Assembly: GCF_023921805.1 (NCBI RefSeq)
Contig: NZ_CP074197.1
Span: forward strand, 496,001 to 560,000
DNA: 64,000 nt
DNA from: Ruminococcus sp. FMBCY1
GTDB taxonomy: Bacteria > Bacillota > Clostridia > Oscillospirales > Acutalibacteraceae
Direction of reading: 5' to 3'
In this document: one piece after another, positions 23,546 through 38,464 of the stretch
How the letters are laid out: the number at the start of each line of letters is the position of its first letter
Numbering within the stretch: the first letter of the stretch is position 1
Position numbers and translations under genes: made by a program
Notes under the pieces: model-generated
What the model was told of the DNA's origin: nothing
Seen by the model: only the letters and a program-made list of their open reading frames with translations
Database searches by the model: none

Positions 23546-23616
23546 ACTGATAAAGAAGTGATAATTTTATATCGCTGTAAAATAATACTTTTTATTTTAA
23601 ACTTGGAGGTATGATT

Positions 23617-24126
23617 ATGGCTGTAAAACAAACCGCAGGCAGAGATTCGCTCGGAGAATTTGCACCTAAATTTGCAGAACTTAATGACGATGTACTTTTC
23701 GGTGAAGTATGGTCAAGAGAAGATAAACTTTCACTTCGTGACCGCTCACTCGTAACAGTAACCGCACTTATGGCACAGGGATTAACCGACTCATCCTTTA
23801 AATATCACCTTATGTCAGCAAAAAAGAACGGTATTACAAAAACGGAAATTGCAGAAATTCTCACACACGCCGCATTCTATGCCGGCTGGCCAAAGGCTTG
23901 GGCAGCATTCAGAATGGCTACCGAAGTATGGGCTGATGATGCGGAAGATTTGAGCGAAAAGGAAAAATATCAGCAGTCAATTCTTTTCCCGATTGGCGCA
24001 CCTAATGACGCATTTGCAAAATATTTTATCGGTCAGAGCTATCTTGCACCGTTGTCTACAGCACAGGTCGGTATTTATAATGTAACTTTCGAGCCGAAGT
24101 GCCGTAAACTGGATTATGTAGCATAA
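23617..24126 (+). pseudogene. Carboxymuconolactone decarboxylase-cupin gene truncated by the ICE
   Basis: The 169-codon frame has an intact CMD/AhpD-like domain: GEFAPKFAELNDDVLFGEVW, then the helical core LRDRSLVTVTALMAQG and HLMSAKKNGITKTEIAEILTHAAFYAGWPKAW. It continues into FPIGAPNDAFAKYFIGQSYLAPLS and NVTFEPKCR. In the two-domain family this point leads into a cupin with metal-binding histidines (the NNWHIHH region). Here it instead changes to KLDYVA and stops. The break coincides with the start of ICE-like sequence, so the cupin half should lie beyond the other ICE end. ATG 23617 fits GGAGGT spacing better than 23611. Whether the truncated protein folds is unknown. Confidence 0.85.
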
Positions 24127-24398: not shown

Positions 24399-25007
24399 AT
24401 GACAGCACAGCCAGATATCATCTGGAATGAGCAATGTTTGGGGATACGGATAGGAGAACAGGTTTGCACCTATCTGAAAAAGCATGATGCGGAATACCAG
24501 AGACTGCAAAATAAAATACTGGAACTTACAGAGAGGTATCCAGTAATAGAAACATTTATGGAGTCGAATCAGGCAATCAGTCTAACGACAGAAGAGCATA
24601 AGGCAGTGCATCAATATTTCCGACTGGAAAGCGAAAAGGAAATGATAGAAGAACAGTACCATTTTTATATGGGACAGGCTCAAATGATCTCCTATGGAGC
24701 AATGCTTGGAAAAATTAAAAAAGCAATATTGGGAAATGATGACGGTGACACAAAGAAACTGCTGGAGTTGCTGCTGGATACCTGGATTGATGAGGTTGAA
24801 GATCAGCTGAAAGAAAATACAGTGTACCAGGGAATGCTTGAAAAAATATCGAAATATGAAGAACAGGTTCAGACAATGGGATTATCAAAAGAAAAGCGAA
24901 AAACAATAGACAAATACGTTACTGAAGTTAGTGAGAGATGGATATTATATGCGGAATCTTTATATCAGGCTGGCATGCAGAAAATTCTGGAACTATTAAA
25001 TTTGTAA
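24399..25007 (+). CDS. Hypothetical helical protein at the ICE left end
   Basis: A 202-residue protein not recognised. It is almost entirely alpha-helical and charged, with heptad-like stretches (ESEKEMIEEQYHFYMGQAQM near residue 80 and DEVEDQLKENTVYQ near residue 130), and has no signal peptide, Cys pair or obvious catalytic motif. It starts at ATG behind AGAAGGGAG. It is the first gene of the element, preceded by the shared ICE promoter-like motif and followed by a bidirectional terminator. A regulatory or structural role in the element is possible. Confidence 0.6.
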   Translation: MTAQPDIIWNEQCLGIRIGEQVCTYLKKHDAEYQRLQNKILELTERYPVIETFMESNQAISLTTEEHKAVHQYFRLESEKEMIEEQYHFYMGQAQMISYGAMLGKIKKAILGNDDGDTKKLLELLLDTWIDEVEDQLKENTVYQGMLEKISKYEEQVQTMGLSKEKRKTIDKYVTEVSERWILYAESLYQAGMQKILELLNL

Positions 25008-25021
25008 AAAAGGGACGGATA

Positions 25022-25054
25022 AAATGGGGAAGCACGAAAGGAACTTCCCCATTT
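25022..25054. terminator. Bidirectional terminator between convergent genes
   Basis: A perfect stem AAATGGGGAAG / CTTCCCCATTT, A-rich on one side and T-rich on the other, between the helical protein gene and the minus-strand regulator. Confidence 0.85.
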
Positions 25055-25061
25055 GTCACTT

Positions 25062-25313
25062 CTATTCATCTTTGCCATCAATGAGAAATATGTATGAAAC
25101 CTGAAAGATTTCAGCAATGGCTTTTAATTCAAGATCAGTGACATAACGCTTGTTTGTTTCGATTCTGGTGATTACATTTTTATCCATATCGTAACCAGCT
25201 AACTGGAGTTTATAGGCAAGATCACGCTGAGACATATTGTGGGTCTTGCGAAGTTCAATCAATCGCTGGCTAATCAGATTCTTCTCACCAGACTGTGTCC
25301 TTGGCTTTGGCAT
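25062..25313 (-). CDS. XRE-type helix-turn-helix regulator
   Basis: An 83-residue DNA-binding protein. The HTH reads ISQRLIELRKTHNMSQRDLAYKLQLAGYDMDKNVITRIE; the DLAYKLQ and KNVITRIETNKR helices form the DNA-reading pair. The tail LKAIAEIFQVSYIFLIDGKDE is typical of small Cro/CI-like regulators. The ATG at 25313 (minus strand), giving MPKPRTQ, is chosen over the longer frame because AGAGGAAGAG precedes it. It is divergent from the 116-residue gene, so it may control both. Targets are unknown. Confidence 0.82.
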   Translation of the reverse strand: MPKPRTQSGEKNLISQRLIELRKTHNMSQRDLAYKLQLAGYDMDKNVITRIETNKRYVTDLELKAIAEIFQVSYIFLIDGKDE

Positions 25314-25445
25314 CTTAAATCTCTTCCTCTCTGGTAAAAGGATGGCTTGTCTCACTTTTTGCACCATCTGTATTGATTTTAACGATTGGACAAGGTAGAA
25401 TCGGTTGTAAAAGTGAGACAAGGAAAGAAGAGAAGGGAGAAATAT

Positions 25446-25796
25446 ATGGAGCAGGCAAAAATAGAGCAGCTTGCATTTTTATATCTATGCAGCGAGCATG
25501 ATAAAAGGTTATTGCTGAAAAAAGAAAAAATGCCGTTAGCTGATTTTGACAGGTTGACCTACTTGATTTACCATTTAGGTTTTAAGGAATATCATATAAA
25601 AGTATGGATGGAATTTGCTGGGGACTTCCAAAAGGAATGGGATTGCCTGGAAGCACTTCAGGAAACAGGTGGGTGTGTTGGAAACATAGATAGTACAGAA
25701 TCAGAAGTTAAACTCCATGAGATGTGGATTCAGGATTTTTGCAAAAGCACACCAAAAGAGATCGGAGAGTGGATACAAGACCTAGATTATAAATAA
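25446..25796 (+). CDS. Hypothetical small soluble protein
   Basis: A 116-residue acidic protein, not recognised. It is helical with several Trp (VWMEFAGDFQKEW, EMWIQDFC, GEWIQDLDYK) and two separated Cys. It starts at ATG behind GAAGGGAG and lies divergent from the XRE regulator. It probably belongs to the accessory block at the left end of the element. Confidence 0.6.
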   Translation: MEQAKIEQLAFLYLCSEHDKRLLLKKEKMPLADFDRLTYLIYHLGFKEYHIKVWMEFAGDFQKEWDCLEALQETGGCVGNIDSTESEVKLHEMWIQDFCKSTPKEIGEWIQDLDYK

Positions 25797-25914
25797 AAAA
25801 TATGATATCATTAGTGGTAGAAATCGAATTTTGTTAGGAAATGATACAATAATGAGTAGTGATAAAGAAATTGCTCATAGCATTGCGATATATATAAAGC
25901 TATAGGGGGATGTT

Positions 25915-26685
25915 ATGACAGAACAGCAGTATAAGGATTTATTGATAGCAACAGCAAAGATGAGTGATTATGAACATAAAGATGAGGTGGTGGAGGCGCT
26001 TAAAGTTGCTTCTGTTTCATTTCAAAAGGAATGGGCTTTTACATATCATTTGCCAGATCATCGTCAAGAGTATATTATTATTAGCGTTGTTCCAGATAAA
26101 TTAATTGTCTTGAAAGAACATGAAGATTTTGTTGATGATTTGTGCAAACAGGTTTATGAACCAAACGATTATAATGAGTATAGCGGATTGGTATTAAAAC
26201 CCGGAATACTTAATATTGCACCAGAAGAAGTAAGCCAAGAGATACTTTTTGATGATATACAAAATCGGATAATTGATGAAATTCGAGAAGCAAAGTTCTC
26301 AATTTGGATAGCAATGGCATGGTTCACCAATAAAAAAATATTTGATGAATTATTGAAAAAAAGAAATGAAGGGTTAGATGTAAAAATTATTATTGATAAT
26401 AATCGTGTTAATAAGGAGAAACCTTCGTTCACTTTGGAAGATCACTTTGAGGTTTATCGGGTGGATGTGATGTCAGAGCGGTACAAAAATATAATGCATA
26501 GGAAGTTTTGTGTGATCGATTTAGAAGTTGCAATGCACGGTACTTTCAATTGGACAAACGCTGCAAACTATAATAAGGAACATTGGGATGTAGATCATAA
26601 TAGAGAAACAGCAAAAACATTTGCAGAAGAATTTGTGAAAATGAGAAGAGATGCTGAATTGTCGATGTTGTGGCTTGATTTTTGA
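25915..26685 (+). CDS. Phospholipase D-fold protein (single HKD motif)
   Basis: A 256-residue protein. The C-terminal half is a PLD-like domain. It begins with ILFDDIQNRIIDEIREAKFSIWIAMAWFTNKKIFDEL, and the catalytic motif MHRKFCVIDLEVAMHGTFNW near residue 195 has the His, Lys and Asp of an HKD site. Single-HKD proteins dimerise to form one active site, and several are nucleases. The N-terminal 100 residues are unassigned. It starts at ATG behind AGGGGGA and is followed 13 bases later by an unknown gene, so the two probably work together. A defence or DNA-processing role is inferred from the family and its ICE-cargo position. Confidence 0.8.
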   Translation: MTEQQYKDLLIATAKMSDYEHKDEVVEALKVASVSFQKEWAFTYHLPDHRQEYIIISVVPDKLIVLKEHEDFVDDLCKQVYEPNDYNEYSGLVLKPGILNIAPEEVSQEILFDDIQNRIIDEIREAKFSIWIAMAWFTNKKIFDELLKKRNEGLDVKIIIDNNRVNKEKPSFTLEDHFEVYRVDVMSERYKNIMHRKFCVIDLEVAMHGTFNWTNAANYNKEHWDVDHNRETAKTFAEEFVKMRRDAELSMLWLDF

Positions 26686-26698
26686 ATGGAGTATGTTC

Positions 26699-27478
26699 AT
26701 GGATTTAAAAGAATTTTATTTTCAAAATATAAAGGAATCCGAATACCATTATCGTTTTCTGGAATCTGTTAAAAAGGTAAATTATACATATAATATTTTT
26801 TGTGGTGAAGAGGAAACTCAGAATTATCAATTTGAGATTTATGATGTTGAAGAAGCAATAACTAAATTTAAAGAACTGTGTCAGCCAGATGTTGATTTTT
26901 CAGGTGAAAATAAATGTTGGTTTTATCTAATAACATATTATCTACATATGCTCGGTTATGAGATAAAAGAGTTTCCTAGAATACTAGCAAGACCCCCTGT
27001 TGATCCAACAGACTTTACATATAGAGATATTAGAAATCGAATTATTGCTCTAGGTGGAGATGATAATGGAACTGTTCGTTATGCGACTAGAAGAACCTTT
27101 GTAGCAGATCTGACATTTGAGCAAAAGTCTTGTAATATTGAGGTGAACGATTCTATAAATCAGAAATTTATTGAAATTTCTACTAGACAGGCATCTTTCA
27201 ATAGTATGCATATAGATGAAAAAATTGCTGAGATTGCAAACCTTATTGAAAACCTGTTGAAACAAGATGGAAAATTTATCACACCAGAATATGAAGATGT
27301 ATGTTGTGGCTTCATTGACGATACGATAGTAAAGAATTATAGAAAGAAAATGCAGTGCTTTAGACATTGCACAGATGAAGCAATAGAGGAAAGAAAGACA
27401 TACTCCGAAGAACAAAAAAATTTCCTTGTTGATTATGGACTTACAATGGTAAAAGCTATTCATGAATTGGTGAAATAA
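26699..27478 (+). CDS. Unknown partner of the PLD-fold gene
   Basis: A 259-residue protein with no recognised family. Visible features are a long helical segment with conserved-looking SFNSMHIDEKIAEIANLIENLL (residues 175-200), a Cys pair in EDVCCGF, and a charged C-terminal helix bundle. There is no membrane segment or nucleotide-binding loop. ATG 26699 is preferred to ATG 26693 by spacing from TGGAG. The gene shares the high A+T of the PLD gene and differs from the GC-richer conjugation genes, consistent with acquisition as a two-gene cargo. Confidence 0.6.
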   Translation: MDLKEFYFQNIKESEYHYRFLESVKKVNYTYNIFCGEEETQNYQFEIYDVEEAITKFKELCQPDVDFSGENKCWFYLITYYLHMLGYEIKEFPRILARPPVDPTDFTYRDIRNRIIALGGDDNGTVRYATRRTFVADLTFEQKSCNIEVNDSINQKFIEISTRQASFNSMHIDEKIAEIANLIENLLKQDGKFITPEYEDVCCGFIDDTIVKNYRKKMQCFRHCTDEAIEERKTYSEEQKNFLVDYGLTMVKAIHELVK

Positions 27479-27583
27479 AGAATAGTAACATAGGCAGCTA
27501 GTAGGAACATTTTAAAGCAGTATTTATGTGCTACAAGAACAGAAATAGAGAATCCAAATTATAAATTAATTAAAAGTGATAGC
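27479..27583. other. Short gap after the cargo pair
   Basis: No gene is seen. It is AT-rich and leads into two successive terminators. Confidence 0.4.
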
Positions 27584-27630
27584 ATACAGTTATGCATATT
27601 TGTTTGTAAATATACATAACTGTATTTTTT
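27584..27630 (+). terminator. Terminator 1 upstream of parM
   Basis: A long AT-rich hairpin (ATACAGTTATG with CATAACTGTAT, inner TATTT/AAATA pairing), then T6. It closes the PLD cargo operon. Confidence 0.85.
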
Positions 27631-27635
27631 ATTAC

Positions 27636-27666
27636 GGGCAGGGCTCTTCGGGGTTCTGCCCTTTTT
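27636..27666 (+). terminator. Terminator 2 upstream of parM
   Basis: GGGCAG-GGC-TCTTCG-GGG-TT-CTGCCC followed by T5. It is a second, GC-rich terminator directly after the first, insulating the conjugation region. Confidence 0.8.
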
Positions 27667-27738
27667 CTCTTTTTCCAGACCAAAAGACCACCTGCTGGAA
27701 AAGAACAAGAAAAACCAGAAAGGATGTGGTGACTTATC

Positions 27739-28644
27739 ATTATAGGAATTGACCATGGATATTATGCCATAAAAACTCCCCATGTATGTTTCCCGACCGG
27801 ACTGACCGGATACGATTACGAGCCGTATACCATGCAGAATGTCCTGCAGTACAATGGGAAATTTTATGTGTGTGGAACCGGGCGGCAGACGCTGGTGAGA
27901 AGTAAGACTTCCAATGACAATTATTATCTTTTGACAATGGCAGCCATTGCCCAGGAAATCCGCTATCGCCGGGGAGAGCGGAAAACAGATGTAGTTCTGG
28001 CAGCCGGTCTTCCACTGGCAAGTTTTGGCAGGGAGAAAAAAGGCTTCCGGGAATATCTGTTTCGGAAAGAGCAGCCTCTGCGTTTCCGGTACGAGGATGA
28101 GAGCTATGAGATCCGGATTCAGGATGTAAAACTGTTCCCACAGGGATACTCAGCCCTGGCTCTCCACCCGGAATGTGTTCGGGACGAGCCTTCTGTTCTT
28201 CTCGCAGATATCGGTGGCTGGACCGTAGACCTGATGCGGCTGGACAACAGTGTTCCAAATGCCGCTACCTGCCGCAGCCTGGAACTTGGTGTGATCCGGT
28301 GTGTGGATGAGATCACCGAGCAGGTACGCAGAAATACCGGACTGTCTGTAACGGATATTCAGATCGAACGTGTTCTGAACGGCCAGAGCTGCAGCATGGA
28401 CCCGGCCGCAAAAGAAATCATTGTCCGGCAGGGAAGGCTCTACACGGAGAAAATACTGTCTGCAATTATGGAAGCCGGGTTCGATCTGAAGGCAATTCCG
28501 TCCGTGATCATGGGCGGCGGAGCCAGCATTCTGAAACGGCACGTGACACCGCAGGACGGGCTGTGTCGGCAGATTTACCTGACAGACGTACACGCCAATG
28601 CTTCCGGCTATGAGCGGATTGTGGGGCAGATGTGCGCGAAGTAA
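27739..28644 (+). CDS. ParM-like actin-fold segregation ATPase
   Basis: About 301 residues of the ParM/StbA actin-like family, which polymerises to position plasmid or ICE DNA. IIGIDHGYYAIKT at the N-terminus is the phosphate-1 loop, ADIGGWTVDLMRL (near residue 158) phosphate-2, and MGGGASILKRH (near residue 257) the adenosine motif. The next gene overlaps its end, as ParR does. No ATG, GTG or TTG exists between an in-frame TGA at 27730 and residue 30. Translation probably starts at ATT 27739 (or the adjacent ATC or ATA), behind GGTGA at 27728. Confidence 0.85.
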   Translation: MIGIDHGYYAIKTPHVCFPTGLTGYDYEPYTMQNVLQYNGKFYVCGTGRQTLVRSKTSNDNYYLLTMAAIAQEIRYRRGERKTDVVLAAGLPLASFGREKKGFREYLFRKEQPLRFRYEDESYEIRIQDVKLFPQGYSALALHPECVRDEPSVLLADIGGWTVDLMRLDNSVPNAATCRSLELGVIRCVDEITEQVRRNTGLSVTDIQIERVLNGQSCSMDPAAKEIIVRQGRLYTEKILSAIMEAGFDLKAIPSVIMGGGASILKRHVTPQDGLCRQIYLTDVHANASGYERIVGQMCAK

Positions 28645-28925
28645 AGAGACCCGTTTTCTCGTTCCGCCTGAACCTTGATAACCCAGATCACAAAAAGGCA
28701 TGGGAGATCCTGCAAAGTGTTCCAGATGGACAGAAGAGCAGCTATCTGGTTCAGGTGATCTTAAAAGATCAGGAAAACAATCAGCTGGAGAAAAGCATCC
28801 GGCAGGCAATCCGGGAAGAACTGGCAGGTGTTTCCATTTCTGGCTCCGGGGAGAGTGTTTCAAAAAAGGAAGAAATCCCGTCCCAGATGCTGGATTTTCT
28901 CTCCGGGCTTGAGGATGCATTCTGA
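28632..28925 (+). CDS. ParR-like centromere-binding protein
   Basis: A 97-residue basic-to-acidic protein starting at GTG 28632 and overlapping parM by 13 bases. The N-terminus KRPVFSFRLNLDNPDHKKAWEILQSVPDGQKSSYLVQVIL has the strand-helix-helix pattern of ribbon-helix-helix partners of ParM. The C-terminus is a flexible acidic region ending in QMLDFLSGLEDAF, a likely ParM-contact peptide. Function is assigned by position and fold pattern. Confidence 0.7.
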   Translation: MREVKRPVFSFRLNLDNPDHKKAWEILQSVPDGQKSSYLVQVILKDQENNQLEKSIRQAIREELAGVSISGSGESVSKKEEIPSQMLDFLSGLEDAF

Positions 28926-29082
28926 AAAAGTCAAGTCTTTCCTGGTGATAAAATAGCCAAATTTCAAGCAGTCAAATTAGTATAAATCACGGATTTTTGA
29001 AAGGGGTGATGCCTATTGAATGTTATTGGATCTGCATCCTTTGGGAGCTTTTGAGAGCCTCATATTCGTTGGGTATTGTGAA

Positions 29083-29111
29083 TAGCTTTCTGTCACGTTT
29101 TAGGGTATGTT
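29083..29111 (+). promoter_or_regulatory. ICE promoter-like motif, copy 2
   Basis: TAGCTTTC (29083-29090), 13 bases, GGTATGTT (29104-29111), 32 bases before the RHH gene. It is preceded by GTGAA, like copy 1. Confidence 0.55.
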
Positions 29112-29143
29112 GTATGTAGAAAAAAGAAAGGAGAACGAACACA

Positions 29144-29716
29144 ATGGAGATGAAAAACATATGCGGAAAAATCCCGGTAGAGCTGCATGAAAAGCTAAAA
29201 CTGGAAGTCGAAGAGTTAGGAATCAGCATACCAAAATACCTTGAAATGGTAATCGAAGAACACATGACAAGAAAAGGAGAAAAGACGAACATGGCAGATT
29301 TAAGAACAGTAGCAGTACAGGTAACCGAGGATTTATTTTCCAGACTGAAAGCAGTCCTCGCCAGGAATGGCATGAAACAGAAAGACTTCTTAATCGGGCT
29401 TATCGAAGATGCAATCGAAAAAGAAGAAGTCAAATGGAAAGCAGAGTCAGAGGAAGCCGAAGAAACAGAAATGGAAGATCCTGAGACTGCGAAATCAGAA
29501 CCGGATGAAGAGTCAGTAGAACCTGAAGCAGAAGAGCCTGAGACAGAAGCACTGGAAGCTGAAGCAGACGGAGAAATGACAGAACCGGACGAAGCTGAAG
29601 CAGATGAAGAGCCGACAGAGCCAGAAAACGAAGAGCCAGCGGAAGCAGAGCCAACAGAACTGGAAACCGAAGAAGCAGAAGAATCTGAGCCAGAGGAAGC
29701 GGAATCAGAAGAATAG
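29144..29716 (+). CDS. Tandem ribbon-helix-helix-like protein with long acidic tail
   Basis: 190 residues. Residues 1-45 (CGKIPVELHEKLKLEVEELGISIPKYLEMVIEEHM) and 50-95 (VAVQVTEDLFSRLKAVLARNGMKQKDFLIGLIEDAI) are two successive Arc/MetJ-like units. Residues 100-190 are a low-complexity tail of Glu, Ala, Thr and Pro repeats (EPEAEEPETEALEAE and similar), strongly negative. A DNA-binding head with a DNA-mimicking tail suggests a regulator or anti-restriction/partition accessory, though this is not established. It starts at ATG behind AAAGGAGAA and is followed by a terminator-like hairpin before the methyltransferase gene. Confidence 0.65.
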   Translation: MEMKNICGKIPVELHEKLKLEVEELGISIPKYLEMVIEEHMTRKGEKTNMADLRTVAVQVTEDLFSRLKAVLARNGMKQKDFLIGLIEDAIEKEEVKWKAESEEAEETEMEDPETAKSEPDEESVEPEAEEPETEALEAEADGEMTEPDEAEADEEPTEPENEEPAEAEPTELETEEAEESEPEEAESEE

Positions 29717-29749
29717 ACATCACAAAACAGAAACCAAGAGACGGAAACG

Positions 29750-29776
29750 GTGCAGAGAAATCTGCACTGTTTTTTT
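29750..29776 (+). terminator. Terminator-like hairpin between the RHH and methyltransferase genes
   Basis: A 7-base stem GTGCAGA / TCTGCAC closed by a GAAA tetraloop, followed by TGTTTTTTT. An in-frame GTG lies within the stem, but initiation there would be occluded. It may partially end RHH transcription and attenuate downstream genes. Confidence 0.75.
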
Positions 29777-29791
29777 CGCAGCGAAGGGAGG

Positions 29792-31093
29792 CTGATAGCC
29801 GGAACAATTCGATTTTTTGACCTGTTCAGTGGAATCGGAGGATTCCGAGAAGGGCTGCACAGGGCAGGGGGCTTCACCTGTGTCGGACACTGTGAAGCAG
29901 ATGCATATGCAGACCACAACTACCGGGTGCTGTTTGATACGGAAGGAGAGTGGTTCTGCAATGACGCAAGAAATATTGAAACAGAACGAATGCCGGACTT
30001 TGATCTTTTATGTGCGGGATTTCCTTGCCAGGCATTCTCAATCGCTGGACGAAGGGAAGGATTTGCCGATGCAAGAGGAACCCTTTTCTTTGAAGTTGCC
30101 AGACTGGTTGCAGACAAACGACCTGCGTATTTTCTCCTTGAAAACGTACCCGGTCTGCTTTCGCATGACAAAGGGCGGACGTTTCACACCATCCTCAGTA
30201 CGCTATCTGAACTGGGGTATCATGTCGAATGGAAAGTGCTTAACAGCAAGGATTTCGGAGTCCCCCAGTCAAGGAAGCGGGTGTATATTGTCGGATATCT
30301 TGATGGAAGATGTGCCGGAAAAATATTACCTTTCCCAAAAGCAAATGGAACAGCTCTTATACAAGTCCATGCTGGCAAACAGGGAGAAAGAGTCTACGCA
30401 GAAGAAGGACTGAGCTGCACGCTGACCAGCGGGGCTGGTGGTATGGGCGGCAAGACCGGATTATACGAAGTTGGTATCCCAATCAAGGAAAACACCCGAA
30501 AAGGATACAAGATGGCCTACGAGGGGGACAGCATCGATCTCGGATATCCGGGAATCAACAGTCGCAGGGGGAGAGTCGGGCATGAGATCGCCCATACCCT
30601 GACGACCGGAAACCAGCAGGGAACACTGCATTTTGTAGATATCTCCCCTCCGCCGCTGGTGACAGACGTTGCAAGATGTCTGAATACCAGACAGGATTCC
30701 AGCATCCATAACCACAGAGGCGAAAGTTCCGGGGTGCTGGTGGAAGAACCGCCAAGGGCAGTACTGACACCGGCCAAGGAAAAAGTCCGCCAGAATGGAA
30801 GAAGGATGAAAGAACCGGAAGAGCCAATGTTCACCATTACGGCAACTGACCGTCATGGAGTGATTTACCACGGCAGAATCCGCAGGCTGACGCCAAGGGA
30901 GTGTCTGCGGCTGCAGGGATATCGGGATGGTCAGATTTCCAAGATGGAAAAAGAAACATCGGATAACCAGCTTTACAAGCAGGCCGGTAATGGTGTCACT
31001 GTCAATGTCATTGAAGCAATAGGCAGAAATTTGAAAGCAGTAGATGAAGAGATCCAAAGCGGCTCACCTGTTCCAGAAGCGAAGGGTGGGTGA
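29792..31093 (+). CDS. DNA (cytosine-5-)-methyltransferase
   Basis: About 430 residues. The C5 methyltransferase motifs appear in order: I FFDLFSGIGGFREGL, IV GFPCQAFSIAG with the catalytic Cys, VI LLENVPG, VIII PQSRKRVYIVGY, and IX-X near the end (RLTPRECLRLQGY and QAGNGVTVNVIEAIG). A target-recognition region lies between about residues 190 and 340. No restriction gene is adjacent, so it is probably a solitary protective methylase. The start is unresolved: the strong AAGGGAGG at 29784-29791 is followed only by CTG 29792, ATA 29795 and ATT 29807. GTG 29750 lies in a terminator stem. Confidence 0.9.
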   Translation: MIAGTIRFFDLFSGIGGFREGLHRAGGFTCVGHCEADAYADHNYRVLFDTEGEWFCNDARNIETERMPDFDLLCAGFPCQAFSIAGRREGFADARGTLFFEVARLVADKRPAYFLLENVPGLLSHDKGRTFHTILSTLSELGYHVEWKVLNSKDFGVPQSRKRVYIVGYLDGRCAGKILPFPKANGTALIQVHAGKQGERVYAEEGLSCTLTSGAGGMGGKTGLYEVGIPIKENTRKGYKMAYEGDSIDLGYPGINSRRGRVGHEIAHTLTTGNQQGTLHFVDISPPPLVTDVARCLNTRQDSSIHNHRGESSGVLVEEPPRAVLTPAKEKVRQNGRRMKEPEEPMFTITATDRHGVIYHGRIRRLTPRECLRLQGYRDGQISKMEKETSDNQLYKQAGNGVTVNVIEAIGRNLKAVDEEIQSGSPVPEAKGG

Positions 31094-32049
31094 AGCAGAT
31101 CGACCTAAAAGACCAGTATTTTGGTACAGAGATTGAGATGACAGGTATCAGCCGCTATGATGCGGCTGTTGCGATTGGAAGAATGTTCGGAACAGAGCCA
31201 TATCATATCCGTTCTTACGATTCCTGGTGTGTAAAAGATTCAGATGGAAAAACGTGGAAATTTTCAAGAGACAGCAGTATCGACTGTGAAAGGCTGGCAA
31301 ATGGTACTGTAATAGATGCCGATGGAGATTATTCGACAGAAATGGTATCCCCGAAATTGGAATATTCGGAAATGGGGAAACTCCAGGAAGTGGTGCGGTG
31401 TGTCAAAAACGCAGGTGCTTTTGTCAATTCATCCTGTGGCATGCATGTCCATGTGGACGCATCCAATCATACACCAAGGAGTCTGAAAAATGCACTGACG
31501 ATCATGTACTGCAAAGAGGATATTCTGTTCAAAGCCTTAAATGTACAGACGAGAAGGGAAGATGAGTATTGCCAGAAAGTCCGTCCTATGGTATTGGAGA
31601 AGATCCGCCGGATGCCAAACAGCACCATCACGATGGAAAAATTCAAAAGGGCATGGTATGAGGGAAATGACGGAAGCTCCGAGCATTACAACTGGACAAG
31701 GTATTATGCCTTAAACCTACATGCTGTTTTTTCCAAGGGAACACTGGAATGGCGTTGTTTTGAAAGCACCCTCCATGCAGGAAAAGTCCGGTCGAATATC
31801 ACACTGGCACTTGCCATATCCGCACAGGCGATCAACCAATCTTGTACCCATGCAAAAAAGACGGAGATCGGGGATAACCCGGCATTTACGTTCCGCACCT
31901 TTCTGCTCCGCCTCGGATTGATCGGGGACGAATACAAAAATGTGCGGAAGCATCTGCTTGCCAATCTGGACGGGGATAAGGCATGGCGGTATGACAAAAG
32001 TACCTATGCCTGTCTGCAGAATCCAAGACGGACAGATGATGCGAGATAA
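31090..32049 (+). CDS. Amidoligase-like protein (COOH-NH2 ligase family)
   Basis: A 319-residue protein starting at GTG 31090 and overlapping the methyltransferase stop. The segments YFGTEIEMTGISRYDAA (residues 9-25), the acidic SRDSSIDCER and DYSTEMVSPKL pair, and SSCGMHVHVDAS (near residue 115) are characteristic of the putative amidoligase family. That family is glutamine-synthetase-like, using Glu/His metal ligands to form amide bonds, possibly peptide or protein modification. Many clostridial ICEs carry such a gene at this place. Its substrate is unknown. Confidence 0.82.
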   Translation: MKQIDLKDQYFGTEIEMTGISRYDAAVAIGRMFGTEPYHIRSYDSWCVKDSDGKTWKFSRDSSIDCERLANGTVIDADGDYSTEMVSPKLEYSEMGKLQEVVRCVKNAGAFVNSSCGMHVHVDASNHTPRSLKNALTIMYCKEDILFKALNVQTRREDEYCQKVRPMVLEKIRRMPNSTITMEKFKRAWYEGNDGSSEHYNWTRYYALNLHAVFSKGTLEWRCFESTLHAGKVRSNITLALAISAQAINQSCTHAKKTEIGDNPAFTFRTFLLRLGLIGDEYKNVRKHLLANLDGDKAWRYDKSTYACLQNPRRTDDAR

Positions 32050-32134
32050 CAGAATAATGAGAACAGACAGGCCGGGTGGAAACATCCGGCTGTTCTTATG
32101 CAAAATGAAGAAAAAGAAGAAAGAGGTAGAAAAC

Positions 32135-35100
32135 ATGAAGAGTAAATATCGATTCAGGCGAATCCTTTCAGGGGTGATGGCGGCAGTCACCATCTTATCC
32201 ACGGTCATTTCACCGCTGACGGTGTATGCTTCGGAAGAGCCGAAAGCGGCGGAACCGCCAGCGTATGAATCCGTAAAGGATCAGCTGGATGAAAACGAAG
32301 TGGTAAAAGCCACCGATCTGGAGCTGGAAGTCGGACAGGACTTTGATGTTTCCACGGATTTTACAAATTTGGAAATCAAGGACGAAAGCAAAGTCAAAGT
32401 GACATTCCAGAAAGCAGAGAATGACGCCGGGGAGAACTTCAGCACCAGCCATGCAGACACTTACCATGCCGTTTATTATGTGGAGCCAGTCAACCAGAAC
32501 CACCCGGTTTATCAGATTGGGAGAAACCTGATCGTAAAAGAGCCTGTGACAGCAGCTCAGAGTGAACCGCAGACAGAACAGGCAGTTACCGAAGAGGATA
32601 CAGGTTCTGATGATGAGGAAGCTGCCTCGCAGGAAGAAACTGAGACAGTGCCTGTAGAGACAGAAATTGTTGAGCCGGAGACAGCTGAATCTGAAACAGA
32701 AGAACCGGAAGAAACAGAACCCGAATTTCAGGACGGACTTTCCGAATCCGAGTTTGATGCTGCATTAGAGGAATCCGAAACGGAAAATACAACCGATGAA
32801 GAATCCGGGCTGACACTCAGCGATGTTCTGGAGCAGGCAGGGGAACAGGATATTGACCTGATGGCAATGGAAGATGGGGAAACCGTTTCATTCAGCGCAG
32901 TCAATACCAGTACAAGAGCAACACAGGACGTAGATGTGACAAGAGGGGCTGCATACTATTATGCAGACTACGGTCTGGGTTCCTATGTAACTTATAAATA
33001 TACCGTAAAATTTGGAAACGTGTCTGCAACTGCCTACTGTGTGCAGCCGTCCAAGGCAGGACCTGGGGATGGTGTCTATAAGATCACCAAACTGGGTGAC
33101 AGCAAAGCACTGGCAAAAGTATGCTACTACGGCACAAAAGCATCCGGCGAAAATGGATTTTTCTCAGAGAAACATCCTGATTTTTCCGCTGGAAAACAGT
33201 TTATCATTGTCCATCTGGCTGCGTCTTATGCCAATAACAGTAGTGACGCTTTTTCCGGTACGAATGCAACCGGACAGGCTCTGGCAATGGAACTCTACAA
33301 TTATTGCATGAGCCAGCCGGAGATACCGGAAGTGGACATGAGTTTCTCCAATGCAAATGTTACCGCATATATCAGCGGCAACAGCCAGAGAACAGAAGAG
33401 ATCACCTTCAAGGCATCCGAACTGCAGACCATCACCATGAAGCTGCCGTCCGGTGTCAAACTGCATAATGTGACAACGGGAAAAACAAGCAGTGCAGGTG
33501 CATCCGTGGAGATCTGCGGCGGTACCAAATTCTACTTATCTGCACCGCTGACACAGGCAGTGAATGTCAAAGGGGAATGGTCTGTCACCATGAAGGGAAG
33601 CATCATCAAAGATTATTCCGCTTATAAGATCACAACCGGAAGCGAGACACAGGACCTTGCCCTGGTATTTGGCGAGGGTGTGACCGATGAGAAATATGTA
33701 GATTTTAAAGTATCATGGGTAAAACAGGCAACTCTGGAGATCGTAAAGAAAGACCGTAAGAGCAACAAAGCCATCGCAGGTGCAGTTTATGGCGTTTATA
33801 GTGACAAGGATGGAAAGAACCTGATCACAAAGATGCCGGCCACAGATGCCAACGGAGCTTCCAGCGTTACGATCACCAAAACACAGGATACCGTATACCT
33901 GAAAGAGATCTCCGTACCAAACGGATATCTGCTGGATACCAAAGCCTACGATGTGAAACTGGTCATCGGGGATACCGTAAAACAGACCGTTACCGATGCA
34001 GAGCAGATGGCAAGCCTGACCGTTTACAAATTAGGCGAAGTCCTGACCGGAGCAAAGGTGACCGATGATGGTGTTTCCTTTGTTTATACAGAGCAGAAAC
34101 AAAAAGGCGCGGTTTACAACGTTTATGCTGCAGAGGAAATTGTATCCGCAGACGGAACAATCATCTACAAAAAAGATGCACTGGTTAAAGCCGGACTCAC
34201 CACCGGGGATGACGGAAGTGCCACACTGGATAAGCTATATCTGGGGAAATATGTGGTAAAAGAAATGCAGGCACCACAAAATCTGGTATGCACTGGTGAA
34301 AGCCAGGAGATCACCCTTTCCTATGCCGGAAGTAATGTGGAAAAGGTCATGGGAAGCGTGACATTCAAAAATGACCGCCAGAAAGCAAGCGTGAGTGTAT
34401 ACAAACAGGATAAAGAAACCAGGAAATATCTTCCGGGCGGCACTTATGGTCTGTATGCCGGAAATGACATCAAAGCAGCGGACGGAACCATTGTGGTCAA
34501 GAAAGATACTCTCATTGAGAAAGCAGTGACCGGAACAGACGGAAAAGCCGTATATCAGGCAGACCTGCCAATCGCCAACAGCTACTACATGAAAGAGCTG
34601 GGTGCACCAGCTGGATATGTGAGAAACGGCGAGGATGTGTACTCCTTTACCTTCCAGTACACAACAGACAAAGAGGCAACGGTTTCTTTCAACCATACGT
34701 TCCAGAATGAGCGGATCAATGCGAAGATCAAACTGGTAAAAGAGGATTCCGAAACCGGAAAGACCGCACAGGGAGATGCAACACTTGAGGGTGCTGTTTA
34801 CGGATTGTATGCCCGTGAAGATATCGTACATCCAGATGGACAGACAGGTGTTCTTTACCCGGCAGGAACACAGATTGCAACCCTGACTACGGATACAGAG
34901 GGAAATGCAGAAGTCGCAGACCTCTATCTCGGAAAGTATTACGTTAAAGAACTGACTCCGCCTGTCGGATATCTGGCAGACACGGAAGAACATGATCTGG
35001 AGTGTAATGACGAGGGAGATCTGGTTCAGACGGTAGAACGTACCGCAACTTCTCTGGAAGATGTGATCAAACAGCCGTTCCAGGTCATTAAAGCAGCCAA

Positions 35101-38100
35101 CAATGGTAAGACCGATGCCGATCTGTTAAAAGGTGTGGGATTCAGTGCATATCTGGAGAGCAGCCTGAAGAAAAATAAGGACGGTTCCTATGACTTTGCA
35201 TCTGCTACTCCGGTCGTGCTGACCGCAGACGGACAGACAGAAATGTTCACGGATGAGCGTGGATATGCATGCTCCATTCCGCTTGCATACGGAACCTACA
35301 TTGTAAGGGAGACCACCACACCGCACAACTTCAAACCAGTCGATGACTTTAAGGTTGTGATCTCGGAAAACAATCCGGATCAGCCGCAGGTATGGCGTGT
35401 GCTTCTGGACGAAGAGTTTGAAGCAAAATTAAAGATCGTCAAAAAAGATGACGAGACAAAGAAATCGGTCCTGGTTCCGAATACCGAGTTTAAAGTATAC
35501 AATCTGGATAACAAGAAATATGTGGAACAGGTGACCACCTACCCATCTACTACGGTACATAAATCTTATTTTACGGATGAGAATGGATACCTGATCCTGC
35601 CACAGAATCTGGCTTGTGGAAATTACCGCATCGAAGAAGTGATTGCACCGGATGGATACACCCACAGTGCCAATACCGTGGAAATCAAGGTAGACAGCGA
35701 TACCGCATACCAGGAAGATCCGGTCAGCGGTGACCTGATCATCGAGGTGGAATTCGAGAACCACCCGGCAAAAGGCAGACTGACCATCCACAAGGAAGGA
35801 GAAGTAGTCAAAGGTTTTGACAAGGATTTCACCTATGAGGAAGCCAGCCTTGCAGGAGCCGTGTTTGAGGTTTATGCCGCAGAAGATATCTATACCGCAG
35901 ACCATCAGAAAGATGAGAACGGCAACCGTTATCTGGAATATGCCAAAGACACACTGGTGGCAACGGTGACAACTGATGAAACCGGAAGTGCCGTAATCGA
36001 GAATCTTCCGCTCGGAACATACCGGGTAGAAGAGAAAAAAGCACCGGAAGGCTACACCTGGAATGCCAAAGGGGAAGAGGTAACCTTTACCTATGCCGGA
36101 CAGGATACCCCGGTCGTAGACGAAGAAGTGACATTTAAAAATGAACGCCAGAAAGTAAGCATCACCGTGGAAAAACAGGACGCAGAAACCGGAAGCGTGG
36201 TAGCCGGAGCTGTATTTGGACTTTACAATAAGAAGGAAATCAAATCAGGCAACAAGGTCATCGTGAAAGCAGATACCTTATTACAGGAGATCACAAGCGA
36301 TGAAAAAGGACAGGCACACTTTACCCTGGACCTGCCGCTTGGAACTTATTATGTAAAAGAGATTTCCGCACCGGACGGTTTTGTATCCTCTGATGAGGTA
36401 CTGGAATTTGATGCCACCTATCAGGGACAAGACATCCAGACCATTAAACTGAAATCGATTAAGAAGAACCAGCCGACGACCATCGAGGTGACAAAATCCG
36501 ATCTGACCACAGGCGTGGAGTTGAACGGAGCATCCCTTTCTGTTCTGGATGAGGATGGAAACGTGATCGACAGCTGGACTTCCGTAAAGGATGAGCCTCA
36601 TGTGATCAAATATCTGACTGTTGGAAAAACCTATATCCTCCGTGAATCCCTTGCACCGCATGGTTATTTAAAGACTACGGATGTGAAATTCACCATCGAG
36701 GATACCGCAGAAATACAGAAAGTGGAAATGCAGGACCATGTACCGAAAGCACTGCTGATCGTAAACAAGAAGGGCGAATTCCTCGATAAGATCACCCTGC
36801 TGGATAACGTCAAAGGTGTTGTGGAACATTTCTTTGAGTACATTACAGGAAGCCTGACAGACGTTACCTTCGAAATCCGTGCTGCCGAAGATATCAAAGC
36901 AGCTGATGGCGTAAGCCCGGACTATTATTCCAAGGACGAACTGGTAGCAACTGTAACTACCGATACAAACGGTGTTGCAGAAGTATCTGACCTTCCGGTT
37001 GGAAAATATTATGTCAAAGAGGTAGGCACAGCATATGGTTATATCCTGGATGAAGAACCACGATATGTAGATCTTTCCTACCGCGATCAGGATACCCCGG
37101 TTGTCGTATACGATGAGGACTGGCAGAACAACCGCCAGAAGGTGAAAGTGAACGTCCTGAAGAAAGAAAAGGATACCGACCGTGTATTAAAAGGCGGCAT
37201 CTTTGGATTGTACACTAGGAACGACATCCTGTCCGCATCTGGAAAGGTGCTGATGGAAGCAGATACCCTGATCGAGTTAAAAACAACAGATGTAGATGGA
37301 AAGATTTCCTTTATTGCAGACCTGCCGATTGACGGAACCTATTATGTGAAGGAGCTGTATGCACCGGATGGATTTGTCACCACCGGAGAAGAACAGGAAT
37401 TTGTTTTTGAGTACCAGGGAGACAAAGAAGCAGAAGTGTCCTATGAGTTCGTATTTGAAGATGAGCCGACAACCGTGGAACTTTCCAAAACCGATCTGAC
37501 CACAGGCGAGGAACTGCCGGGAGCCAGATTACAGCTGACGGATGAAAACGGGGCTGTTGTTGAGGAATGGACATCCACCAAGGAGCCGCACATCATCAAA
37601 GAACTGATTGTAGGAAAATCGTACACCCTGACAGAAACCAAGCCGGCCGATGGATATGCCACTGCGGAAAGCATCACATTCACCGTGGAGAATACTGTAG
37701 AGATCCAGAAACAGGTAATGGAAGATGATGTGACCAAAGTGGAGATCAGCAAAACGGATATTACCGGAGATACTGAGATCGAAGGAGCCAAACTGACCAT
37801 CACAGATGAAAATGGCAATATCGTAGAAACCTGGACTTCCGGTAAAGAGCCGCATTATATCGAAAAACTTCCAATCGGTAAATACACCCTGAAAGAAGAG
37901 CAGGCTCCAAACGGTTATGTCGTTTCGGAAGAGATCACCTTCGAGGTGGCAGACACCACAGAGATCCAGAAGGTAGCCATGAAAGATGATACCGCAAAGG
38001 GACGTCTGATCATTGAGAAAACGGACAAGGATACCGGAGCTGCACTGAAAGGTGCGGAATTTGAATTGAGGGATGCCGATGGCAAAGTGGTAGAAACCCT

Positions 38101-38464
38101 GACCACTGATGAAAACGGTCATGCAACCAGCGGACTGCTTGCAATCGGAACTTATAAGGATGGCAAATTTGATAAGGCAGCCACTTATTATCTGGTTGAG
38201 ACCAAAGCACCGGAAGGATATCAGCTGGATGAGACCAAGCATGAAGTGACATTTACTTATGTAGATGACAAAACCCCAGTGATTGAAGTCATCCAGAAAG
38301 TGACGAACGAGAAGCTGCCGGAGGACACCCCGTCTGTAAGTAACCCGAAAACAGGCGATGACACCAACCTCTGGATTCCGGCCCTGTGCCTGATCCTTTC
38401 CACAGGCGGTCTGATCGGCATGGGTGTGGCATCCAGAAGAAAGAAGAAAAAAGGGGGCAGATAG
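32135..38464 (+). CDS. Giant thioester/CnaB-repeat surface adhesin with NPKTG sorting signal
   Basis: A 2,109-residue cell-wall protein. It has a signal peptide (about residues 1-38, ending VYAS), then a spacer with a Glu/Thr-rich stretch (about 145-235). A thioester domain follows, with Cys302 in AYCVQP and probable partner Gln381 in TGQALAM, which can bond covalently to host targets. About fourteen successive CnaB/SpaA-type beta domains follow. Each starts with a K-x-D/E strand (for example LTIHKEGEVVKG, VELSKTDLTTGEE) and ends in the E of a YYVKE-like strand, consistent with isopeptide-stabilised modules. The C-terminus NPKTG, a hydrophobic helix and RRKKKKGG form a sortase signal. A class B sortase lies two genes downstream. 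ATG 32135 is preferred to 32105. Confidence 0.93.
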   Translation: MKSKYRFRRILSGVMAAVTILSTVISPLTVYASEEPKAAEPPAYESVKDQLDENEVVKATDLELEVGQDFDVSTDFTNLEIKDESKVKVTFQKAENDAGENFSTSHADTYHAVYYVEPVNQNHPVYQIGRNLIVKEPVTAAQSEPQTEQAVTEEDTGSDDEEAASQEETETVPVETEIVEPETAESETEEPEETEPEFQDGLSESEFDAALEESETENTTDEESGLTLSDVLEQAGEQDIDLMAMEDGETVSFSAVNTSTRATQDVDVTRGAAYYYADYGLGSYVTYKYTVKFGNVSATAYCVQPSKAGPGDGVYKITKLGDSKALAKVCYYGTKASGENGFFSEKHPDFSAGKQFIIVHLAASYANNSSDAFSGTNATGQALAMELYNYCMSQPEIPEVDMSFSNANVTAYISGNSQRTEEITFKASELQTITMKLPSGVKLHNVTTGKTSSAGASVEICGGTKFYLSAPLTQAVNVKGEWSVTMKGSIIKDYSAYKITTGSETQDLALVFGEGVTDEKYVDFKVSWVKQATLEIVKKDRKSNKAIAGAVYGVYSDKDGKNLITKMPATDANGASSVTITKTQDTVYLKEISVPNGYLLDTKAYDVKLVIGDTVKQTVTDAEQMASLTVYKLGEVLTGAKVTDDGVSFVYTEQKQKGAVYNVYAAEEIVSADGTIIYKKDALVKAGLTTGDDGSATLDKLYLGKYVVKEMQAPQNLVCTGESQEITLSYAGSNVEKVMGSVTFKNDRQKASVSVYKQDKETRKYLPGGTYGLYAGNDIKAADGTIVVKKDTLIEKAVTGTDGKAVYQADLPIANSYYMKELGAPAGYVRNGEDVYSFTFQYTTDKEATVSFNHTFQNERINAKIKLVKEDSETGKTAQGDATLEGAVYGLYAREDIVHPDGQTGVLYPAGTQIATLTTDTEGNAEVADLYLGKYYVKELTPPVGYLADTEEHDLECNDEGDLVQTVERTATSLEDVIKQPFQVIKAANNGKTDADLLKGVGFSAYLESSLKKNKDGSYDFASATPVVLTADGQTEMFTDERGYACSIPLAYGTYIVRETTTPHNFKPVDDFKVVISENNPDQPQVWRVLLDEEFEAKLKIVKKDDETKKSVLVPNTEFKVYNLDNKKYVEQVTTYPSTTVHKSYFTDENGYLILPQNLACGNYRIEEVIAPDGYTHSANTVEIKVDSDTAYQEDPVSGDLIIEVEFENHPAKGRLTIHKEGEVVKGFDKDFTYEEASLAGAVFEVYAAEDIYTADHQKDENGNRYLEYAKDTLVATVTTDETGSAVIENLPLGTYRVEEKKAPEGYTWNAKGEEVTFTYAGQDTPVVDEEVTFKNERQKVSITVEKQDAETGSVVAGAVFGLYNKKEIKSGNKVIVKADTLLQEITSDEKGQAHFTLDLPLGTYYVKEISAPDGFVSSDEVLEFDATYQGQDIQTIKLKSIKKNQPTTIEVTKSDLTTGVELNGASLSVLDEDGNVIDSWTSVKDEPHVIKYLTVGKTYILRESLAPHGYLKTTDVKFTIEDTAEIQKVEMQDHVPKALLIVNKKGEFLDKITLLDNVKGVVEHFFEYITGSLTDVTFEIRAAEDIKAADGVSPDYYSKDELVATVTTDTNGVAEVSDLPVGKYYVKEVGTAYGYILDEEPRYVDLSYRDQDTPVVVYDEDWQNNRQKVKVNVLKKEKDTDRVLKGGIFGLYTRNDILSASGKVLMEADTLIELKTTDVDGKISFIADLPIDGTYYVKELYAPDGFVTTGEEQEFVFEYQGDKEAEVSYEFVFEDEPTTVELSKTDLTTGEELPGARLQLTDENGAVVEEWTSTKEPHIIKELIVGKSYTLTETKPADGYATAESITFTVENTVEIQKQVMEDDVTKVEISKTDITGDTEIEGAKLTITDENGNIVETWTSGKEPHYIEKLPIGKYTLKEEQAPNGYVVSEEITFEVADTTEIQKVAMKDDTAKGRLIIEKTDKDTGAALKGAEFELRDADGKVVETLTTDENGHATSGLLAIGTYKDGKFDKAATYYLVETKAPEGYQLDETKHEVTFTYVDDKTPVIEVIQKVTNEKLPEDTPSVSNPKTGDDTNLWIPALCLILSTGGLIGMGVASRRKKKKGGR

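Follow-up and report, generated by a model that had tools for sequence, protein, structure and literature searches.

A predicted PLD nuclease gene and a gene of an unnamed family probably adjoin as separate cargos at the end of an ICE in Ruminococcus

Two adjacent genes in the cargo end of a Ruminococcus sp. FMBCY1 ICE most probably represent two independently mobile single-gene cargos, one encoding a predicted PLD nuclease and the other belonging to a separate family. Anti-invader roles are the most likely ones for both, with element maintenance as an equal option for the second; we put the probability of this reading at roughly 0.7. The genes are located in a stretch of 64,000 nt (the window; NZ_CP074197.1, positions 496,001 to 560,000), and a preliminary description had proposed them as a candidate two-gene defence module. 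Both genes are real, their borders are correct, and the guess at a defence setting is reasonable, but there is no evidence of a two-gene module. A conserved pairing of the PLD family with the partner family was not found among the loci and genomes searched, a result that is firmer still than the reading as a whole. Consequently, the two-gene lead gives way to two separate one-gene questions. The features considered are the following:

25915..26685, + strand: gene for a PLD-like protein with a single HKD motif, predicted nuclease (256 aa; Pfam PLDc_2, structure model and fold match to NucT)
25915..26214, + strand: part coding for the N-terminal alpha/beta domain (about 100 aa; residues 1-100 of the model, block pLDDT mostly 73-95)
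26497..26550, + strand: part coding for the HKD motif, residues 195-212 (kept in 18/18 relatives examined)
26699..27478, + strand: gene for a 259-aa protein of an unnamed family (ORF; homologues in 20 loci of the genome collection and 28 plasmid records)
27576..27661, + strand: two adjacent hairpins with T tracts, double terminator (fold -41.2 kcal/mol, z -7.66)

Organization of the gene pair and its ICE setting

The two genes are arranged as first described, with a single-HKD protein and a 259-residue protein encoded 13 nt apart on the plus strand. The partner gene starts at the ATG at 26699, though its frame is open from 26651 and overlaps the PLD gene. From this codon, 15 homologues can be aligned (14 with M at this position, L003 with ATA), and GGAG is found ahead of it at 26688-26691. 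The claimed A+T richness was confirmed by a GC fraction of 0.31-0.36 over 25500-27499 versus 0.40-0.54 over 27500-33999. The double terminator is likewise present: two hairpins (27576-27635 and 27636-27661) are stacked after the partner gene, and none of 200 shuffled sequences was as stable; of the two, just the G+C-rich hairpin was picked up by a terminator consensus scan. In the 118 nt ahead of the PLD gene, no promoter-like site exceeded the scan threshold. Both genes are probably read on one common transcript, which would end at the double terminator.

Downstream of the pair, genes for a relaxase, a T4SS coupling protein and a TraG-like ATPase were identified, and the ICE backbone starts with an actin-like gene at 27832. 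Comparison with eight related elements, whose actin-like genes are 63-67% identical, revealed no counterpart of the window ORFs from upstream of this gene in the 4.7-9 kb examined, which argues that the pair is cargo added at that end and bears out its earlier placement at the cargo end of the ICE. In 7/8 of these elements, a tRNA gene is located about 0.5-0.6 kb before the actin-like gene. A 116-aa ORF, an HTH gene and a 202-aa ORF upstream of the pair were considered as further members and rejected, as their tblastn matches among the loci searched fall in copies of the window only. A carboxymuconolactone-decarboxylase-type gene (23611-24126) seems to be cut near 24100, judged by the domain layout of decarboxylases, in which the gene would continue past approximately this position; its far half was searched for and not found. 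The left boundary of the ICE may lie at this cut. Within the ICE, a 2174-aa ORF at 31940-38464 is, by eye, repetitive and similar to surface proteins, and its C-terminus is LPXTG-like.

The two families were not found together outside the window's genome

We searched 90 loci with profiles of both families, and 66 of them matched either profile, while 24/90 matched neither, including L020 and L021 with their earlier fragment matches. The partner alone is present in 29 of the matching loci and the PLD protein alone in 33 (15 with the full architecture; the other 18 are partial or PLD-part matches and make a weaker comparison). Both families occur in only four loci, all of which are copies of the window. 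The loci comprise partial or split genes (L017-L019, L029, L033, L043), near duplicates that were counted twice (L009/L010, L048/L049), related staphylococcal plasmids (L025, L084, L087) and some sequences with short flanks, such as L044 with 101 nt after the gene and L013 with 51 nt before it. A tblastn search of the PLD protein on 20 partner loci gave no match. In a draw of 250 genomes from the bacterial family of the window, six matched the PLD protein (three nearly full length, one N-terminal part only, two PLD part only) and three the partner; among 398 genomes of the phylum, these numbers were three and one. In both draws, the two families met only in the window's own genome. Recurrent adjacency outside the window thus amounts to 0 loci and to 0 genomes beyond the window's own, and the conserved two-gene module suggested before was rejected on this check of co-occurrence.

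Inspected by eye, the DNA ahead of the closest partner homologues does not resemble the end of the PLD gene, and promoter-like sequences of their own precede several partner relatives. Taken together with the lack of co-occurrence, this makes two separate arrivals the simplest account. In a true two-gene defence module, the partner would sense or regulate and the PLD protein would cut. The 13-nt spacing, the same strand and the common terminators could indeed reflect selection for co-expression, and a number of described systems use PLD nucleases as effectors. However, no second locus carries both families, whereas each is found alone many times, and we consider such a module very unlikely. 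In L044, no partner start is found within the 101 nt between the PLD stop and the end of the contig, whereas in the window the start follows after 13 nt; the inverted repeat after the L044 PLD gene is followed by A and not by T. As near relatives of the PLD protein are few (one found above 50%, on this contig ending 101 nt on), the two genes might conceivably be paired within that narrow group. Our favoured account is that two independently mobile single-gene cargos would have come to adjoin at the cargo end of the ICE.

The PLD protein is a predicted single-HKD nuclease

The PLD protein matches Pfam PLDc_2 over residues 119-243 (E 1.2e-21), and SACK1 (FAM83 type, same fold) is barely over its Pfam cut-off. 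Single-HKD nucleases are characterized by the motif layout HxK(x)4D(x)6G(S/T)xN, and the protein contains one intact motif of this layout at residues 195-212. H195, K197, D202, G209 and N212 are invariant in 11 aligned sequences, and the full motif is present in all 18 relatives examined, a conservation that suggests enzymatic activity. Among solved structures, Nuc, NucT and Zucchini are the best relatives. The structure model, built from nine sequences (mean pLDDT 81.4, pTM 0.52), comprises an N-terminal domain of about 100 aa with the order alpha-alpha-beta-beta-alpha-alpha-beta, followed by a C-terminal PLD fold that aligns with NucT (6ehi_B) at Z 17.2 and rmsd 2.4 over 140 residues. The PLD domain filled the list of fold matches, which hence says little on the N-terminal domain; this domain may sense or dock. 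NucT and Nuc are homodimers with nuclease activity, and by analogy the window's protein is probably a homodimer acting on nucleic acid, with an active site that would be formed from two HKD motifs. Cleavage would proceed through a phosphohistidine intermediate, with nucleic acid as the presumed substrate.

A function as a phospholipid enzyme could be suspected from weak matches to cardiolipin synthase models. However, these scores are far below the cut-off, only one HKD motif is present, and the single-HKD nucleases NucT and Nuc rank top in both fold and sequence, although the solved relative Zucchini is deposited as 'mitochondrial cardiolipin hydrolase'. We rejected a lipid enzyme, the probability of which appears negligible.

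Compared with known systems, the PLD fold and the single HKD motif are common to the window's protein and to NucT of Helicobacter pylori (6ehi) and Nuc of Salmonella (1byr), with Z 17.2 and 16.6, but the window's protein differs by its extra N-terminal domain of about 100 aa and reaches 38.8 bits with NucT, for which the cut-off is 211. Its PLD part also gave weak profile matches to DrmC of DISARM (E 2.1e-8), DpdK of Dpd (E 1.1e-4) and MkoC of Mokosh (E 1.8e-6). However, none of the partner genes of these systems, including the helicase and methylase genes of DISARM, was found among the five ORFs scanned (24399-27478), and the 20.3 bits obtained with DrmC_I are below the curated cut-off of 133. 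In the accessible part of the respective sources, portable auxiliary effectors of this kind are described: DrmC for DISARM and PLD nucleases for Dpd and systems related to it (PMC12458937), as well as HKD endoDNases for BREX, where they mostly appear as fusions to BrxL (PMC12839542); PLD domains are also reported in CoCoNuTs (PMC11090510). The likeness to the BREX enzymes, as far as they are described there, comes through a 37% identical relative in genome G173, which has a PglX remnant on one side and PglZ on the other; in contrast to their main form as BrxL fusions, no BREX gene was found beside the window's PLD gene. By analogy with these accounts, the window's protein may work like the auxiliary PLD/HKD effectors, and we do not claim its membership in those systems. 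Its most likely role would be that of an auxiliary anti-invader nuclease. A description of the pair was not met in the literature searched.

The PLD protein matches 126 plasmid records, 68 of them conjugative, and a scan of viral contigs confirmed 17 matches with the PLD alignment and none with the PLD protein alone. Relatives adjoin recombinase genes in L036, L037, L044, L045 and L093. The only relative found above 50% full-length identity (73%, in L044) comes after three serine recombinases and a small HTH gene (by eye). An 86-aa ORF at L029:1501-1761 matches the N-terminal domain only (46% across 74 residues); the flank covered does not contain a PLD part.

The partner represents a family outside the libraries used

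The preliminary description had not recognised the partner, and this was corroborated: no known metabolic family was found in Pfam, NCBIfam, PADLOC, PHROGs or the PDB. In detail, the 259-aa protein matches no Pfam or NCBIfam family above the cut-off and no PADLOC model (E up to 10), hits one weak PHROG (E 0.098), and has no sequence match and only a profile match of E 1 in the PDB. Divergent homologues gave weak Pfam matches, all below the cut-off, and one weak PADLOC match (CARF_RelE, E 0.0054). The four family libraries searched here thus contain no model of this family. Relatives were detected at 20 loci of the genome collection, in 28/72,556 plasmid records and in 0/50,697 phage records. 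Viral contigs yielded one locus, in which the gene is split by an IS3-like insertion (L043:4575-6573, from the viral collection). Identities of 66-83% were obtained for fourteen aligned sequences, which come from clostridia, enterococci, Vagococcus and Aerococcaceae, followed by relatives in one Ruminococcus bin (49%) and Lactococcus (47%) and by shorter ones on staphylococcal and Aerococcus plasmids (26-32%). Across 23 sequences, the invariant core consists of R131-R132, E184, K188, F221-R222-H223 and E231.

The structure model of the partner is poor (pLDDT 68). Its fold search gave no PDB or viral-model match at E<=0.001, and the best row was an unrelated protein with Z 4.8, rmsd 4.4 and 90 aligned residues; for a model of this quality, a missing fold match does not amount to a new fold. 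HEPN RNases carry the motif R-x(4-6)-H. Around the invariant R222-H223, the only place where this motif was sought, R215 and H223 are 7 residues apart, and the low-confidence model compares with Csm6' at Z 2.2. No support for a HEPN reading was found in these surroundings or in this model.

The partner family would travel alone on Bacillota plasmids and islands with no need of the PLD protein, and its most likely role is that of a solitary anti-invader or element-maintenance factor. As judged from sequence, it may be a solitary defence gene. One may go further and tentatively regard the partner as the founder of an undescribed solitary anti-invader family that spread alone via plasmids, ICEs and chromosomal islands of Bacillota and tends to insert downstream of other genes, many of them for nucleases or defence proteins, with the PLD gene as a separate portable nuclease; we consider this extended version possible, though on balance doubtful. 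If the family does protect alone, it would represent a small portable defence gene that has been overlooked in gut clostridia, enterococci and, more distantly, on staphylococcal plasmids.

Defence genes near relatives of both families

The idea of a role in defence held in part: the two-gene module fell away, but defence genes are found near some of each family's relatives. Model hits to defence genes are located near 5/15 PLD-family loci. LmuA of Lamassu lies 2.8 kb upstream of the relative in L032, with annotated ABC-three-component genes between them; a DSR2 gene follows about 0.55 kb downstream in L034, and PD-Lambda-3_B about 0.2 kb downstream in L045. In L038, Gabija GajB is about 1.6 kb away; the GajB model also matches in 13/14 control genomes, but the match in L038 spans almost the entire model with E 1e-216. 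The 37% relative of G173:C1:1894361-1898566 (L091) lies between the C-terminal remnant of PglX, which covers model positions 910-1173 and contains one stop, and the PglZ gene, overlapping the start of the latter by 4 nt; a further PglX/PglZ locus of this genome is located near 1.64 Mb. Outside the 5/15, the relative in L039 directly follows a McrC-like gene (by eye).

For the partner family, defence-type neighbours were found at 7/23 loci. These include an AbiJ-like PDC-S32 (L007, and L005 by sequence cluster), a DEDDh exonuclease in L022 and, assigned by cluster, in L015, an HNH nuclease together with a MvaI-type restriction enzyme (L003), and restriction-modification genes by annotation of type II (L024) and type I (L086); hits to mad2, mad3 and PD-T4-6 also occur in this set. 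The PADLOC candidates PDC-S32 and DEDDh/PDC-S48 are upstream neighbours of partner-family genes (L007, L022), whereas the window's partner is itself without any PADLOC match.

As a control, we used 15 random chromosomal stretches rather than other cargo (of 20 requested, 3 did not exist and 2 short ones were left out). Among the matches listed for the control, mad3 was hit by six proteins and each of the PD-T4-6 models by one, probably an identical protein throughout; the others were mad6, MkoA and a kinase model. We judged these hits to be housekeeping ATPases, kinases and helicases. The neighbour tallies of the three sets cover ORFs of at least 140 aa (118/143, 71/91 and 114/130 ORFs) and are limited to the 25 most frequent families out of 164, 86 and 33, with many redundant models of one protein. 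Because the control is random chromosome, with no correction for the mobile-element habitat, the neighbours support defence moderately. Nevertheless, a defence setting of the PLD nuclease has support. Alternatively, the PLD protein could serve the mobile element in DNA processing, entry exclusion or the clean-up of incoming DNA during conjugation. Plasmid-borne Nuc-type proteins might act in this way, and the many conjugative plasmid records and the recombinase genes beside relatives are in line with it; however, several relatives are embedded in, or adjacent to, genes of BREX, Lamassu, DSR2 or Gabija, and we regard service to the element as unlikely in comparison with an auxiliary anti-invader nuclease.

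The surroundings of the partner genes were also inspected for position. Among the 21 partner loci with a called upstream neighbour (drawn from L002-L025, L043, L085, L086, L094 and L095, and including the duplicates L005/L007 and L015/L022, small ORFs and the split L043), the neighbour is on the same strand in 19/21, at a distance of 18-961 nt. It looks like the partner gene lands behind other genes. The neighbours themselves are mostly unrelated and comprise ribosomal protein S9 (L004 and L011, by eye), an IS3 transposase, and AbiJ-like, DEDDh and HNH proteins.
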